DNA of 64,000 nucleotides, from NCBI GenBank assembly GCA_029821755.1, contig JALGSV010000009.1, positions 1-64,000 of the forward strand, in the 5' to 3' direction. Position 1 is the stretch's first letter; each line of letters starts with the position of its first letter. A program made the position numbers and the translations under genes. The DNA comes from Candidatus Zipacnadum vermilionense (GTDB taxonomy: Bacteria > Armatimonadota > Zipacnadia > Zipacnadales > Zipacnadaceae). Below are positions 1,471 through 7,344 of this stretch, piece after piece. The notes beneath the pieces were generated by a model. It was given only the letters and a program-made list of their open reading frames with translations. It did no database searches and was not told where the DNA came from.

Positions 1471-2436
1471 ATGCCTGACCAGCCCGTACCCGAATTCACC
1501 CCGACCGACGACCTCCCTATCGCCCTCCCCTCCCCCGCCGAGGAGCCCTCTCCCTCTGCCTCCCCTCCGCCCCGGGTGCTGCTGTCCCAGACCGCCCTTG
1601 CGGCCATCCGCGAGCATGGGTATACCGACACCGCCCACGAGTGCGGGGGGGTGATGGTCGGGGAGAAGCTGGACGGCGACCGGGGACCGATGGTGCTGGT
1701 GGAGGCCGTCATCGCCGGGGCGCATACCGACAACCGGCGCGGGTCGGTGACCTTTACCCACGAGACCTGGGAACAGATCAACCAGGAAAAGGATCAGAAC
1801 TACAGCGACCTGCGCATCGTCGGCTGGTATCACACCCACCCCGGCTTCGGGATCTTCCTGTCCGACTATGACCAGTTCATCCAGGCCAACTTCTTCAACC
1901 TGCCCTGGAATGTCGCCTTCGTGCTCGACCCGCTCTCCGGCGAGTCGGGCGCTTTCGGCTGGGTAGAAGGGAAGATCACCCGCCTCCCGGAATATGAGTC
2001 CTACGCCGTGGCCGACGAACATCCGCCGGCTCCCGCGGAGGGAGAGCCGGTCGCCGAGGCGGAGTCGGAGGCTGCCGAAACCGCTGCCGAACCCGAGTCG
2101 CCGCCGCTCCTGCGCCGCCCGCTGCGCTGGGGAATAGTCGGCACGGTATTAGCCAGTCTGGTGCTGCTGGCGCTGGTGATTCTGTCGCTGCTGGGGATGG
2201 GGCTGATGCTGGATCAGCAACGTCTGCCGGCGTCGCCGCCCCCGGTGTCGATGCCTCCCGCCCCGGTTCCGGCAGCTTCACCAGCCGCCCCGGGCCCGGC
2301 TTCAACCGAGGCCCCGGCCCCGACCGAGGCGCCGCCGACTGAGGCCGGCCCGCCCCCGTCAGCGTCCAATCAGGAGAACGCTCCCGCGCCGGAAGCGCCG
2401 CATGACTCCAGCCCCCTCGAACAACCCGAGCCCTGA
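1471..2436 (+). CDS. JAMM/JAB isopeptidase with membrane anchor (JAMM-1)
   Basis: This 321-residue protein is a predicted zinc metalloprotease that would remove the ubiquitin-like modifier. The complete JAMM signature is present: Glu57 (HECGG), His121 and His123 (HTHPGFG), seven residues, Ser131, then Asp134. A long hydrophobic helix at about 220-247 follows an acidic Ala/Glu/Pro linker, and the last 70 residues are Pro/Ala-rich. The catalytic domain is therefore N-terminal and tethered to the membrane, probably facing the cytoplasm. The ATG at 1471 was chosen because the longer open frame back to 1363 encodes intergenic repeat sequence and lacks similarity to the domain. The gene overlaps the next JAMM gene by 35 bp. 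RadC is excluded by the lack of its helix-hairpin-helix part. Confidence 0.9.
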   Translation: MPDQPVPEFTPTDDLPIALPSPAEEPSPSASPPPRVLLSQTALAAIREHGYTDTAHECGGVMVGEKLDGDRGPMVLVEAVIAGAHTDNRRGSVTFTHETWEQINQEKDQNYSDLRIVGWYHTHPGFGIFLSDYDQFIQANFFNLPWNVAFVLDPLSGESGAFGWVEGKITRLPEYESYAVADEHPPAPAEGEPVAEAESEAAETAAEPESPPLLRRPLRWGIVGTVLASLVLLALVILSLLGMGLMLDQQRLPASPPPVSMPPAPVPAASPAAPGPASTEAPAPTEAPPTEAGPPPSASNQENAPAPEAPHDSSPLEQPEP

Positions 2437-3118
2437 CGACCTGGAGATCGAGATCGGCGAGTCCTCCGCCGAGGCCGAGGCGCTGGGGGAGGATCCTGCC
2501 CATCGCGAGGGCGTGAACCTCCTCACCTTGGGCAAGCCGGCGCATGACCCGCGCTTTCTGGTCGGCTATCCCTGCCTCAAACAGGTTCTGGCCCACGGAC
2601 AGCGGCACGAGGACACGGAGATCGGCGGCGTCCTGCTGGGCCGCATCTGGCGCTGCGAGCGCGGCCGGGTCACCGAGGTGACCGAGACCGTGCCCGCCGA
2701 GAACACCGAGGCAGGCCTCGGCCACGTGACTTTCTCGCACGAAACCTGGCAAGAGATATATAATGAGGTGGACAGGCGACCACCGGAGTTGAAGATCGTC
2801 GGCTGGTACCACAGCCATCCCGGCTTCGGGGTCTTCTTTTCCCAGCAGGACCGCTTCATCCAGCGGCATTTCTTCGGCGGCGAGGGCCAACTCGGGATCG
2901 TGGTCGACCCCCAGCGGATGGCTGTAGCCGCCTTCGAGACCCGGGACGGCGAGGTCGTGGCGCTGCCGGGTCTGCTCCTGTCCGCCGACCACGACACCCA
3001 CGCGGCCGCCCAGGGGCTGCTGCACAAGCTATCCTTCCCCCCGGCCGGGGAGAAGAGGGGAGTATTGCAGCGGCTTTCCGAACCGCTGCATAATCTGATC
3101 GAAGGTAATGGAGGTTAG
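2402..3118 (+). CDS. JAMM/JAB isopeptidase ending in Gly-Gly (JAMM-2)
   Basis: A 238-residue soluble JAMM protease starts inside the preceding gene (35-bp overlap, different frame). Its metal site is intact: Glu73 (TEIGG), His137, His139 (HSHPGFG), Ser147 and Asp150. The domain core from about 68 to 190 is clearly paralogous to the preceding gene (shared strings such as VTFxHETW, IVGWYHxHPGFG), but there is no membrane helix. The C-terminal tail of about 50 residues is helical-looking and ends in Asn-Gly-Gly. A terminal GG on a protease is odd and might be chance, or might make it a conjugation substrate. The predicted role is removal of the operon's modifier from targets. The substrate is unknown. 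Confidence 0.9.
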   Translation: MTPAPSNNPSPDDLEIEIGESSAEAEALGEDPAHREGVNLLTLGKPAHDPRFLVGYPCLKQVLAHGQRHEDTEIGGVLLGRIWRCERGRVTEVTETVPAENTEAGLGHVTFSHETWQEIYNEVDRRPPELKIVGWYHSHPGFGVFFSQQDRFIQRHFFGGEGQLGIVVDPQRMAVAAFETRDGEVVALPGLLLSADHDTHAAAQGLLHKLSFPPAGEKRGVLQRLSEPLHNLIEGNGG

Positions 3119-3126
3119 AGCCAGGT

Positions 3127-3675
3127 TTGACTAACGCCCGTTTGCGCCGCCTATACGCCGATTACCGGGATGTGACCGAGCAATTTGCCGGGCATCCCTA
3201 TATCACCGTAACTCCGCTGCGGGGCAATCCGCCCGAGGCTTACGAGGTGCGCTACCGCATCCCCGGCCTGGAGCTGGACACCGCTTCCAACCGCCCCCGT
3301 CGCCGCGACCAGCACATTGCCCACATCTACCTGCAGGACACCTACCCGCGGGAGAAGCCCAAGTGCGCCATGGAGACGCCGATCTTCCACCCCAACTTTG
3401 GGTCGTACATCTGCATTGATGACTACTGGTTCGCGGGTACGACGCTGTGCTACATCATCATCCACATCGGAGAAATGATCCAGTACCAGAACTACAACCC
3501 CAAGAGCCCGCTGGACCCGGTCGCCGCACGCTGGGCCCAGCAGAACGAGCGTCTGCTCCCGGTGGGCAACCTCGATCTCTCCCAGCCGGAGTTAGACATA
3601 GACTTCCTCGGCGAGGGCGGTGAAGAGACCCCCACCCCGGCGGCCGAGGAGGACATGGACATCCAGCTGTGCTAG
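3127..3675 (+). CDS. E2-like ubiquitin-conjugating enzyme (UBC fold)
   Basis: This 182-residue protein should take the modifier from the E1 as a thioester and pass it on. The UBC core is canonical: an N-terminal helix (RLRRLYADYRDV), a beta meander, then HPN at residues 88-90, the catalytic Cys96 in YICIDDYW, and the downstream NPKSPLDPVA segment (124-133) that matches the NPDDPL helix-loop of eukaryotic E2s. HPN is the oxyanion motif that many bacterial E2-like proteins lack, so its presence makes this a eukaryote-like E2. An acidic tail of about 40 residues follows the fold and ends in Cys. The start is TTG, nine bases after the preceding stop, chosen because it places helix 1 correctly. 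It is flanked by JAMM-2 and a small membrane protein. Confidence 0.93.
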   Translation: MTNARLRRLYADYRDVTEQFAGHPYITVTPLRGNPPEAYEVRYRIPGLELDTASNRPRRRDQHIAHIYLQDTYPREKPKCAMETPIFHPNFGSYICIDDYWFAGTTLCYIIIHIGEMIQYQNYNPKSPLDPVAARWAQQNERLLPVGNLDLSQPELDIDFLGEGGEETPTPAAEEDMDIQLC

Positions 3676-3687
3676 CGTGGGGGGGGA

Positions 3688-3717
3688 GCGCGAGCTGGAA
3701 AGCCCGCGCTACGCGGA
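3688..3717. repeat. Palindromic repeat R1, single copy
   Basis: A copy of the R1 family (reverse orientation) ends in ACGCGGA and carries the GCGGGC-like stem around GGAAA (here GCGAGCTGGAAAGCCCGCGC). It occupies the short gap between the E2 gene and the small membrane protein, so the repeat family has entered even the ubiquitin-like operon. No promoter is visible in it. Confidence 0.7.
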
Positions 3718-3725
3718 CCGATACC

Positions 3726-3974
3726 ATGCGCTACCTGATCGAATATCATCAGACCGGCCAGCCCCCTTCCCGCTGGCGCGCCTTCTGGCAGCAGGTGCTG
3801 GCCTGGGTGATCCTGGTCGCCTTCGCCGCCATAACCGTGACCCTGGCGATCTTCTTCTTCAGCGTAGTCGCCTCCATCGTCGCCGCGCTGCTCATCATCG
3901 GCGCCCTCACCGCGCTGGTTTTCCGGCTCCGCTACGGCCCCGGCTGGTGGTGGCGAGTCGGCCGCAAGCGCTAA
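3726..3974 (+). CDS. Small two-helix membrane protein of the ubiquitin-like operon
   Basis: This 82-residue protein is not recognised. It starts MRYLIEYHQTG and has one long or two tightly packed hydrophobic segments (about residues 24-68, rich in Val, Ile, Phe and Ala) followed by a basic WWWRVGRKR end. The ATG at 3726 follows an R1 repeat; a GTG at 3669 would only add translated repeat. Its place between the E2 and the RING protein suggests it is a membrane partner that helps bring the conjugation machinery to the bilayer. That role is inference only. Confidence 0.65.
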   Translation: MRYLIEYHQTGQPPSRWRAFWQQVLAWVILVAFAAITVTLAIFFFSVVASIVAALLIIGALTALVFRLRYGPGWWWRVGRKR

Positions 3975-4023
3975 GACCCCCGAAGTTGTTCCACAGACAT
4001 TTGTCGTCGTGCCTACCGTCACC

Positions 4024-4875
4024 ATGCGTTGTCCCGCTTGCCATCAAAACATACGAGTTCAGGGCAAGTTCTGCCCCAAGTGCGGGGACCAGATCTTTGG
4101 CCTGCCTGTCCACGGATCGGGGGGGCCCGAGGGGCCGTCGGAACCCTCCGTGCCTCCCCCGCCTGCCCAGGACTCGGCCATTCCCGTCCCGCCACCGCCC
4201 CCACCGACGGCGTATGCGCCCACATCTCCCCCTCCACCCGGCTCCGTGGCAATTGACGACGACTTCAGCACCAGCCTCTATCCTAGCCCCCCCGCCTCCG
4301 AGCCGGTGCTGGACATCACGCTCGAGGACGACACTCCCGGCGCCACCAGCCTGGCCGAGGCGATCGGCAAGGTCTGCCCCTACTGCCGCTTCCCCATCAA
4401 GGCCGGCGAGCCCGTGCAGATTTGCCCCAGTTGCGGCGAGCCGCACCACCGCGACTGCTGGCAGGAGAACGGTGGCTGTACCATCTACGGCTGCCGGTCT
4501 AGCCCGGCCATGGCCGGCACCGCCGCGGCCCCGGTAGCCGTGCCCAGCCAGACGTTGCCGCAGTGGCCCGGCTATGGAGACGGAGGTTACCAGTCCACCT
4601 CCCTGCCTCGCGATGCCATCGCCCTGCTGGAGGCGGAGCTAACCCGCCTGGCCACCAACGCCCTGGCCTTCGCGCTGCTGGGCTTCCTGGGCCTAACGGC
4701 GGTGATCGGTCTGCTCACGGGCGTCTCGGTCCTGGGCCAGATCTCCCACTCGGGCTTGCGCGCCTCCCGCGCCCGCGGCCTGGCCTGGGCCGCGGTCGGC
4801 CTGTCCGTCTTCTGGCTGATCATCATTATCGGCCTCCTCGTGGTAGGTGCCCAGATAATCAGCAGCGTCGGCTGA
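4024..4875 (+). CDS. Membrane-bound Prok-RING-type protein, candidate E3 ligase
   Basis: Numbering here follows a GTG start at 4009; the ATG at 4024 is five codons later. An N-terminal zinc ribbon (CPAC 8-11, CPKC 22-25) is followed by a Pro-rich linker of about 80 residues. Then comes a RING-like cross-brace, CPYC (123-126), CPSC (139-142), HH (146-147), Cys150, Cys157, Cys162: the C-x2-C...C-x2-C-x3-H-x2-C...C spacing of the Prokaryotic RING finger family 1. Two C-terminal transmembrane helices (about 215-237 and 257-283) form a DUF4190-like hairpin. By analogy it would bind the E2 and direct transfer of the modifier at the membrane. Direct E3 activity of Prok-RING proteins is not something the sequence can prove. 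It sits between the small membrane protein and JAMM-3. Confidence 0.87.
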   Translation: MRCPACHQNIRVQGKFCPKCGDQIFGLPVHGSGGPEGPSEPSVPPPPAQDSAIPVPPPPPPTAYAPTSPPPPGSVAIDDDFSTSLYPSPPASEPVLDITLEDDTPGATSLAEAIGKVCPYCRFPIKAGEPVQICPSCGEPHHRDCWQENGGCTIYGCRSSPAMAGTAAAPVAVPSQTLPQWPGYGDGGYQSTSLPRDAIALLEAELTRLATNALAFALLGFLGLTAVIGLLTGVSVLGQISHSGLRASRARGLAWAAVGLSVFWLIIIIGLLVVGAQIISSVG

Positions 4876-4922: not shown

Positions 4923-5525
4923 ATGCCCACCTCCCCTCTCAACCGCCGCCCCGCCTCTCCTCTCTTCGCCCTGGCCGAGAAGGGCTCCACCACCAGTGAG
5001 TCTCTTGACGTCTACCTCCACCTTGACGCGCTGGAGGATATTCTCGACGTCGTCAACCCCCGCGACCGCGACGAGGCCGGCGGCCTGCTCGCCGGGGAGT
5101 CGGACCAGGACGACACCGGTCCCTACCTCCTCGTCCGCCGCGCCCTGCCCGCCCGCCGCGCCCGCGGGAAGCGTATCTCTCTCACCTTCACTCCCGAGGC
5201 CTGGGAGGACCTGTGGACTGCTCACGACCGCGAGTGCCCCGACTTGGCCGTGGTGGGCTGGTACCACACCCATCCCGGCCTGGGCGTCTTCCTCTCCGAA
5301 CAGGACCAGTTCATCCATCGTCACTTCTTTACGGCAGGCCACCAAATCGCCCTCGTCTACGATCCTGACGAATTCCGCTGGGGCGTCTTCTACTGGGACG
5401 GCGAGGGTTTGCGCGCTGCGCGCGGGCTGTATGTCTACTCCGAAACCGCCCGCTCCTACCCCGCGCTGGAGCAGGCCTTGCGTGAAGTCACCCCAGAGTG
5501 GATAATATTGCACGATCAGGACTGA
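4923..5525 (+). CDS. JAMM/JAB isopeptidase, third copy (JAMM-3)
   Basis: This 200-residue JAMM metalloprotease has Glu51 (DEAGG), His115 and His117 (HTHPGLG), Ser125 and Asp128 all present. It is the shortest of the three, with no membrane helix and a compact C-terminus (EWIILHDQD). The surrounding motif ITLTFTPEAW/VVGWYHTHPG matches the other two, so the three arose by duplication but are well diverged. The ATG at 4923 follows the RING gene by 47 bp that contain a short GC-rich palindrome; the open frame upstream overlaps the RING gene and is a shadow. The predicted role is deconjugation or recycling of the modifier, perhaps with a different target range from JAMM-1 and JAMM-2. Confidence 0.9.
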   Translation: MPTSPLNRRPASPLFALAEKGSTTSESLDVYLHLDALEDILDVVNPRDRDEAGGLLAGESDQDDTGPYLLVRRALPARRARGKRISLTFTPEAWEDLWTAHDRECPDLAVVGWYHTHPGLGVFLSEQDQFIHRHFFTAGHQIALVYDPDEFRWGVFYWDGEGLRAARGLYVYSETARSYPALEQALREVTPEWIILHDQD

Positions 5526-6396: not shown

Positions 6397-7344
6397 TCAG
6401 GGCGTGGTAGCAGGTGCCACCTGGGAGGAGACGGAAGCCTGCCACGGCGAGAGAGCGATCTCCCCGAAGTGCTTCTTCCCCACCCATTTGACATGTCCGT
6501 CGGCGTAGCCAACGTTCAAGCCGCCGTTGTGCCGATAGGCAGCGACATCTCGACCGCCTCCTAACTGGGTACCGTCAAAGAGAACCCCCGTTTCCCCTGG
6601 TGGGAGAGTACCCGGCGGGTAAGGGAAACCGGCATAGAAGCCGTTGAAAGCGGGACTCATGGTGTAACTCACCGATTCGCTGCAGCCGCTGGTCTGCTTG
6701 TTGCTGCGCCCATCAGTGCGCCCATCAGAGGGGCAGGCGTAGATCTGCGTGTTATTGATGTAGGGCAAGATGGCATCGGGCCAGTTGCCAGCGTACGGCC
6801 AGCGGTCGTCGTAGTCGCTGGCATACATCAACATGCCCAGGTTGAGCTGCTTGACGTTGGAGAGGCAGCTATTCTGTTGCGCCTTCGCTCTAGCCCGCGC
6901 GAATACGGGGAACAAGATGGCCGCGACGATGGGGCCAACCACCAGGCTGACTAAGAAGGCCACGCATCCCAGGACGACGCCCACGATGGCCATGGGCCCG
7001 CCGGGCTGTCGCCTGCTCAGCGACACCGACCCGAGGATGATCGCCAGCGGCCCGGTGATCAAGCCCACTGGCCCCAGGGGGAAAGACACAATCCCCAGGA
7101 TCATGGCGGCAACAGCAAGCCCTGAGCTACCCTCGGGCCGGTAGTTGGGGGTCGGGGCGCAAGTTGGCGGGGGCACGGGTGGCCGCGGGGCGAGCTCAGG
7201 AGGTGGCGGTGGAGTGCTCGGGAGTAGGTCTATGTCGACGTCGCCCGGCGCGGCGTCTCCCTCCACTTGCGCTTGCATGTTCGCGCATCTGGGACACTCC
7301 CGGTCAAAGGCTGTCATTTCGTAACCGCAACGCAGACATTCCAT
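6397..7344 (-). CDS. Zinc-ribbon/DUF4190/pseudopilin fusion protein
   Basis: This 315-residue protein has an N-terminal zinc ribbon (CLRC, CPRC), a Pro-rich linker, two membrane helices of DUF4190 type (about 75-140), and then a pseudopilin-like part with LFPVFARARAKAQQ, CLSNVKQLNLGMLMYASDYDDR and the C-terminal YADGHVKW motif typical of DUF1559-like and Armatimonadota prepilin proteins. The usual N-terminal prepilin helix is replaced by the DUF4190 pair, with the second helix running into the pilin head. GGAGG lies upstream of the ATG. It has a paralogue at 56307, which carries a different N-terminus. It is probably a surface- or envelope-exposed structural protein. The function is unknown. 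Confidence 0.8.
   Translation of the reverse strand: MECLRCGYEMTAFDRECPRCANMQAQVEGDAAPGDVDIDLLPSTPPPPPELAPRPPVPPPTCAPTPNYRPEGSSGLAVAAMILGIVSFPLGPVGLITGPLAIILGSVSLSRRQPGGPMAIVGVVLGCVAFLVSLVVGPIVAAILFPVFARARAKAQQNSCLSNVKQLNLGMLMYASDYDDRWPYAGNWPDAILPYINNTQIYACPSDGRTDGRSNKQTSGCSESVSYTMSPAFNGFYAGFPYPPGTLPPGETGVLFDGTQLGGGRDVAAYRHNGGLNVGYADGHVKWVGKKHFGEIALSPWQASVSSQVAPATTP

Follow-up and report, generated by a model that had tools for sequence, protein, structure and literature searches.

The window, that is, the whole stretch of 64,000 nucleotides of Candidatus Zipacnadum vermilionense that was analysed, begins inside a gene for a ubiquitin-like protein (Ubl), at the start of contig C114. The genes of the operon lie on the plus strand in the order partial Ubl, E1, JAMM-1, JAMM-2, E2, small membrane protein, RING protein, and JAMM-3, and a rubrerythrin-like gene comes next. 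The partial Ubl gene (1-120) encodes the C-terminal half of a YukD-type protein ending in RLQPEITAG (Pfam YukD, E=2.7e-6), and is followed by an E1 of the ThiF family (123-1328; PF00899, E=4.9e-54). JAMM-1 (1471-2436; PF01398, E=5e-9) contains a JAMM peptidase domain at residues 36-140 and a Pro-rich tail, JAMM-2 is encoded at 2402-3118 (PF14464, E=8.6e-12), and the E2 (3127-3675; UQ_con, PF00179, E=9e-8) carries an HPN...CID active site. Downstream are the small membrane protein of 82 residues (3726-3974), the RING protein (4009-4875), which combines a zinc ribbon, a linker, a Prok-RING_1 domain (about 4363-4494; PF14446, E=6e-12) and a C-terminal membrane domain, and JAMM-3 (4923-5525; PF01398, E=3e-9). 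Judging from the conserved MRCP sequence, the RING protein likely starts at the ATG at 4024, and not at the GTG at 4009. A GC-rich dispersed repeat of about 35 bases occupies positions 3684-3718; the genome contains at least 39 more copies similar to it. On the minus strand, a DUF4190 and DUF1559/pseudopilin-like protein with an N-terminal zinc-ribbon-like stretch adjoins the operon (6397-7344), a further case of a membrane domain of the DUF4190 type.

The last 114 bases of a second contig (C40) are identical to the first 114 of the window, and C40 encodes the remaining N-terminal half of the Ubl and, directly ahead of it, a 322-residue trypsin-like protease (G000:C40:27106-28068; 1501-2469 in L121), which the contig break hides from the window. 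Based on this overlap and on the same order in relatives, we infer that the two contigs are joined. The protease is predicted to be membrane-anchored: it begins with a hydrophobic segment resembling a signal sequence, continues with a Trypsin_2 domain (E about 1e-34), and has a strong C-terminal helix with a Kyte-Doolittle maximum over 19 residues (KD19) of at least 2.66. Lys/Arg residues number 3.1 after this helix, on the inside, vs. 1.6 on the outside (n=18), and the protease domain is accordingly predicted outside with its short tail inside. In some relatives, a membrane protein carrying an FHA domain at its C-terminus is also encoded after JAMM-3 or near the operon end (L075, 8756-9955; L077; L099, 5394-6509; L101, 12703-13785), and it could be a phosphothreonine-reading partner.

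Membrane segments were scanned with the Kyte-Doolittle scale over 19 residues at a threshold of 1.6. The division proposed in the initial annotation, with the small protein, the RING protein, and JAMM-1 in the membrane and the E1, E2, JAMM-2, and JAMM-3 soluble, was borne out. The RING protein shows two peaks near its C-terminus (2.43 and 2.84), JAMM-1, which lies outside the annotated span of 3726-4875, a single peak (2.81; residues 222-240, about 2134-2190), and the small protein maxima of 1.93 and 2.95 within one 45-residue hydrophobic stretch with basic ends, while the window copies of the other four proteins lack such segments. The RING and JAMM-1 pattern is kept in about 25 related genomes: all 26 aligned RING homologs and 21 of 23 JAMM-1 homologs exceed the threshold, the other two reaching 1.45-1.46, compared with 42% and 26% of composition shuffles, respectively. 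No membrane segment was found in the homologs of E2 (0/44), JAMM-2 (0/19), or JAMM-3 (0/17), one longer hybrid that does have a helix being excluded from each of the two JAMM sets, and essentially none in the Ubl. Two of the 27 E1 homologs gave marginal matches, both within the Rossmann fold. In a few distant loci (L100, L106, and L107), the helix is found on a longer JAMM instead.

The small protein had been counted as part of this membrane layout; its membrane segment is indeed predicted, but the protein was found in three genomes, all of the window's genus (48-58% identity), and hence does not belong to the core. This level of identity, together with the differences from the L072 gene at the three codon positions (25/17/35), supports its being a real gene. 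AlphaFold, run on three sequences, gives one 55-residue helix (residues 16-70), which fits a hairpin or a single span alike.

The single helix assigned to JAMM-1 held up across its homologs, being fixed at about residues 200-240 in nearly all of them. A strongly conserved JAMM core precedes it, and in 18 of 23 homologs a LysM domain follows; in the window copy the LysM has been lost, with the Pro-rich tail in its place. LysM domains usually bind peptidoglycan, although in a few proteins they are cytoplasmic. The natural reading, given the LysM and the cytoplasmic partners, is a JAMM domain predicted to lie inside and a LysM outside. The positive-inside rule was not usable here, as there is no bias across the helix (2.57 vs. 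2.27 Lys/Arg). The JAMM motif E-HxH-x7-S-x2-D is intact in 32/33, 20/20, and 18/18 members of the three JAMM sets, and literature searches returned no description of a JAB protein with a LysM domain.

Across the 291 genomes of the phylum, 47 encode an E2 relative, and among 61 close relatives a RING relative is present in 29; about 45 genome stretches formed the comparison set. A contig search with the RING protein recovered RING relatives at three loci; two of these matches are strong, and one of the two is labelled candidate division WS1. Throughout the window's family, the genes are arranged as protease-Ubl-E1-JAMM-1-JAMM-2-E2-RING-JAMM-3, with variants in its order and in two more distant families. 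The gene order is stable across genera, in housekeeping surroundings; in L076, L079, and L084 an argH-like gene follows the operon. Mean pairwise identity falls from the Ubl (78.5%) through E1 (57.8%), E2 (53.2%), JAMM-3 (46.9%), JAMM-2 (38.0%), and JAMM-1 (35.4%) to the RING protein (33.5%); the Ubl is the most conserved part, as expected for a modifier contacting every partner. Among the relatives, a second, more divergent E2 (35-41% identical) is encoded upstream of the protease-Ubl pair in L088, L089, L100-L102, L104, L117, L118, and L120. Three loci of family f3 (L114, L115, and L116) encode RING-like proteins in tandem clusters of two or three, apart from the conjugation operon, and several of these proteins have hydrophobic segments. 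In L105 (G260:C266, 3227-7945), a large WD40 protein has at its C-terminus an E2 domain that shares 52% identity with the E2 of the operon, and its N-terminal sequence (SSTFRDM...) has a DUF4062-like look; it may be an assembly chimera or a STAND-type protein equipped with an E2 module.

The alternative that fares best against a membrane-located system is that the anchors are incidental and that conjugation is general and cytosolic, for example in anti-phage defence. The main role of Bil and Bub operons, which combine Ubl, E1, E2, and protease, is against phages (PMC12687455), the E1-E2 and JAB models of PADLOC match the E1 and the JAMMs of the locus, and in some families of the phylum neither a RING nor conserved membrane proteins were detected at the E1-E2-Ubl-JAMM loci. 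However, the membrane segments have been retained even though RING sequences have diverged to about 33% identity, the secreted protease and the wall-binding LysM are tied to the locus, and the stable gene order in housekeeping surroundings is unlike that of sporadic defence islands, so that we regard this alternative as unlikely. Compact Ubl-E2 loci occur in the distant relatives L108, L110, and L111, with E1 and JAMM in L110 and L111 and Ubl ends such as HG; the RING and the conserved membrane parts were not detected in these three loci, which offer a soluble counterpart for comparison.

A short acidic-hydrophobic motif, with a consensus of about DDLDIDLE, is shared by most proteins of the operon. 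It is found at the C-terminus of the E2, in the linker of the RING protein, and near the N-termini of E1, the three JAMMs, and the FHA protein. In the window, it is clear in E1 (LDILDLTVE, at about 144-170), JAMM-2 (DDLEIEI, N-terminal), E2 (LDIDFL followed by the terminal MDIQLC, 3652-3675), and RING (VLDITLEED); JAMM-1 has a weak form (DDLPIAL), and JAMM-3 and the small protein show none. In relatives, all JAMM classes carry it N-terminally. A strict pattern matched 45 times in 48,050 residues of the six enzymes vs. 5 times in control proteins encoded nearby, which total 66,624 residues, an enrichment that is partly circular for E1, RING, JAMM-2, and E2, since the motif was first spotted by eye in the enzymes. 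The matches in the protease and the FHA protein, found after those in the enzymes, provide a more independent test: all 18 complete protease tails end in D[IVL][DE]I[TDE]Lx, as compared with E2 tails, 25 of 33 of which fit the strict pattern and most others by eye. A DNA pattern for the C-terminal motif gave two matches in the 4.39-Mb genome, one in the E2 (3652-3675) and one in the protease (G000:C40:28051-28074), and its reversed control gave none. With a wider pattern, 34 matches were obtained in 44 E2s vs. a shuffled mean of 0.34; a second, stricter pattern had proved too narrow and was replaced.

Nearly every protein of the operon has the motif and the Ubl does not, which makes the Ubl the most economical guess for its partner, perhaps bound in the way that SUMO-interacting motifs (SIMs) bind SUMO. 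SIMs sit in flexible extensions of the SUMO E1 and of SENP proteases (PMC12687455), and the two settings are alike, in sequence only, in having short hydrophobic and acidic motifs on the E1 and the deconjugases. They differ in that here the Ubl is bacterial and YukD-type and the motif is also found at the C-termini of the E2 and the protease. The beta-2 edge of the Ubl is not clearly hydrophobic as it is in SUMO, which makes SIM-like binding speculative.

Prok-RING_1 was detected by Pfam in all 26 RING homologs. The two C-terminal helices initially assigned to this protein correspond to the two hydropathy peaks, but AlphaFold gives three helices (201-223, 229-248, and 253-287; pLDDT mostly above 90) and the first peak is broken, so that a model of two plain helices was dropped in favour of a helix-break-helix followed by one helix. 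In the window copy, the first hydrophobic segment (4660-4737; 26 residues, broken at residues 224-228) is predicted to form a re-entrant hairpin, the Lys/Arg-rich loop (4738-4776) to be cytoplasmic, and the second segment (4777-4851; 25 residues) to be a membrane-crossing helix with a short C-terminal tail outside. Across the homologs, the first stretch spans about 26-33 residues, most often with a central Cys/Gly/Pro or Gly-Leu break. The 15-residue loop, followed by a 25-residue stretch, holds on average 3.6 Lys/Arg vs. 1.15 in the N-terminal flank and 0.23 at the C-terminal end, and exceeds the N-terminal flank in 21 of 26 homologs, with equality in five and a lower count in none. Matches to DUF4190 (E<=0.01) were obtained for 12 of the 26 homologs and to CD225 for one, the window copy itself matching neither in Pfam. 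CD225/IFITM proteins combine a re-entrant segment and a crossing helix with a cytoplasmic N-terminus. Comparison of the RING protein with solved structures by sequence and fold gave nothing significant, only weak PHD/RING-H2 matches, and a Foldseek search with its membrane domain found no similar solved structure (best E 0.4).

The side of the membrane on which the RING lies is decisive, as the initial annotation had recognized in naming a RING outside the cytoplasm as incompatible with its reading. If the two hydropathy peaks were two plain helices with the Lys/Arg-rich loop inside, the positive-inside rule would place the N-terminus, and with it the RING, outside the cell, and this protein would not be the E3 of the operon. 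We consider this highly improbable: AlphaFold splits the first segment into two helices, no signal peptide is present in a protein with zinc-cysteine domains, and the linker carries the motif common to the soluble E1, E2, and JAMM-2 and to the predicted cytoplasmic tail of the protease. On the strength of the three-helix model, the loop charge, the missing signal peptide, and the motif shared with the cytosolic E1 and E2, the RING is predicted to be in the cytoplasm, held by a re-entrant hairpin and one crossing helix.

The remaining components appear equipped for conjugation. A Ubl with a conjugatable C-terminal glycine adjoins a ThiF E1, a UQ_con E2, a Prok-RING_1 protein, and three JAB proteins. 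The HPN of the E2 is present in 37 of 37 loci, with its spacing to the Cys kept in 33, the best PDB matches of this enzyme are eukaryotic E2s, and the nucleotide loop GxGALG of the E1 is found in 24 of 26 sequences. The Ubl, a single YukD-type protein, ends in EITAG/AG; nine loci (L072, L075, L077, L082, L083, L102, L104, L106, and L107) have 1-6 extra residues after EITAG, which would need processing, and other genomes end exactly at AG. By analogy with known systems, this enzyme set points to covalent attachment of the Ubl. That the Ubl is instead never conjugated and serves a membrane or secretion machine as a structural component, as YukD does in type VII secretion, with E1 and E2 doing other chemistry, would fit its YukD family and the report that B. 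subtilis YukD is not conjugated (PMC1779556), but is the least probable reading of all, given one operon with a complete E1, an HPN-Cys E2, a RING, and three intact JAMM peptidases, an AG end with short tails in some genomes that would have to be removed, and no type VII secretion genes noticed in the loci examined. Among the genes listed around the operon no large FtsK/EssC-like gene was noticed, and the subset scanned with Pfam gave no such match.

Bacterial Ubl-E1-E2-RING-JAB operons were reportedly predicted by Burroughs, Iyer and Aravind in 2011, and these resemble the present locus in their enzyme set, YukD-like Ubl, and prokaryotic RING. The combination of an anchored RING, a JAMM with transmembrane helix and LysM, a membrane protease, and a shared motif was not found described, although part of it may be known, the 2011 survey lying outside what was covered. 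The ubiquitin operon of Caldiarchaeum subterraneum (Ub, E1, E2, RING, and JAMM) likewise holds all five activities in one compact locus (PMC11354881). Here, in contrast, the RING and one JAMM are predicted membrane proteins and a proteasome link was not seen at the locus. The archaeal RING is soluble, and the JAMM of that operon is Rpn11-like and comes with a proteasome. Bil and Bub systems also have Ubl, E1, E2, and JAMM in one operon (PMC12687455, PMC11354881). However, BilABCD lacks a RING, the Bil E2 motif is CEHH and not HPN, and the Ubl of the present locus is a single YukD-type protein that is not fused. PADLOC found no match to the Bil E2 or Ubl, and its BilD match to the E1 was weak, below the generic E1-E2 models. 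To our knowledge, membrane anchors are not known in Bil or Bub.

The likeness to ER-type ubiquitin ligases proposed at the outset stands as far as a predicted membrane-held RING facing the cytoplasm is concerned, as in Hrd1 and Doa10 of ERAD, but it is an analogy only, and the protein is not a member of the ER-ligase family. Its predicted anchor resembles a DUF4190/CD225 hairpin and is not that of a multi-pass retrotranslocation ligase with a channel, and the E1, E2, and deconjugases are encoded in the same operon. No homology to the membrane domains of Hrd1, Doa10, or gp78 was found by Pfam, PDB sequence, or fold search, and in the listed loci neither a dislocation ATPase (Cdc48) nor a proteasome was noticed among the genes surrounding the operon, a minority of these genes having been scanned with Pfam.

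The locus is thus a membrane-associated variant of known bacterial E1-E2-RING-JAMM systems, which probably acts at the inner face of the cytoplasmic membrane. Membrane-located modification, as initially proposed, is well supported by the conserved layout and by two further membrane proteins at the locus, the trypsin-like protease and, in some relatives, the FHA protein, and we judge it likely that a ubiquitin-like conjugation and deconjugation system comes together on the cytoplasmic side of the inner membrane. In such a system, the E1 would charge the Ubl and hand it to the E2, and the RING protein, with its zinc domains inside and its hairpin and crossing helix in the membrane, would steer the E2 to membrane or membrane-proximal substrates. 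JAMM-1, reaching to a wall-binding LysM in most relatives, and the soluble JAMM-2 and JAMM-3 would remove or process the Ubl, and the acidic-hydrophobic motif would gather the parts, most likely by SIM-like binding of the Ubl. The outside protease and the LysM may further indicate a response to envelope damage or quality control. A fully trans-envelope system is a tentative proposal to which we give somewhat less than even weight: the protease in the periplasm and the JAMM bound to the wall would pass a signal through the inner membrane to the Ubl cascade in the cytoplasm, whose parts one SIM-like motif would collect, and the system would serve envelope quality control. In the mechanism as a whole, the role in envelope sensing or quality control is the least certain step and, taken on its own, seems possible with similar reserve.

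Bacterial ubiquitin-like systems have so far been treated mostly as soluble modules against phages. With a version that is stable and passed on vertically, and that has its E3, one deconjugase, and a linked protease in the membrane, a bacterial counterpart of membrane-protein quality control would become open to testing; such an operon would also be a simple model for how ubiquitin ligases reached membranes. The shared tail motif offers a direct and cheap binding test of how the system is wired. If the trans-envelope reading is true, it would reveal a SUMO-like interaction code in bacteria serving envelope quality control.
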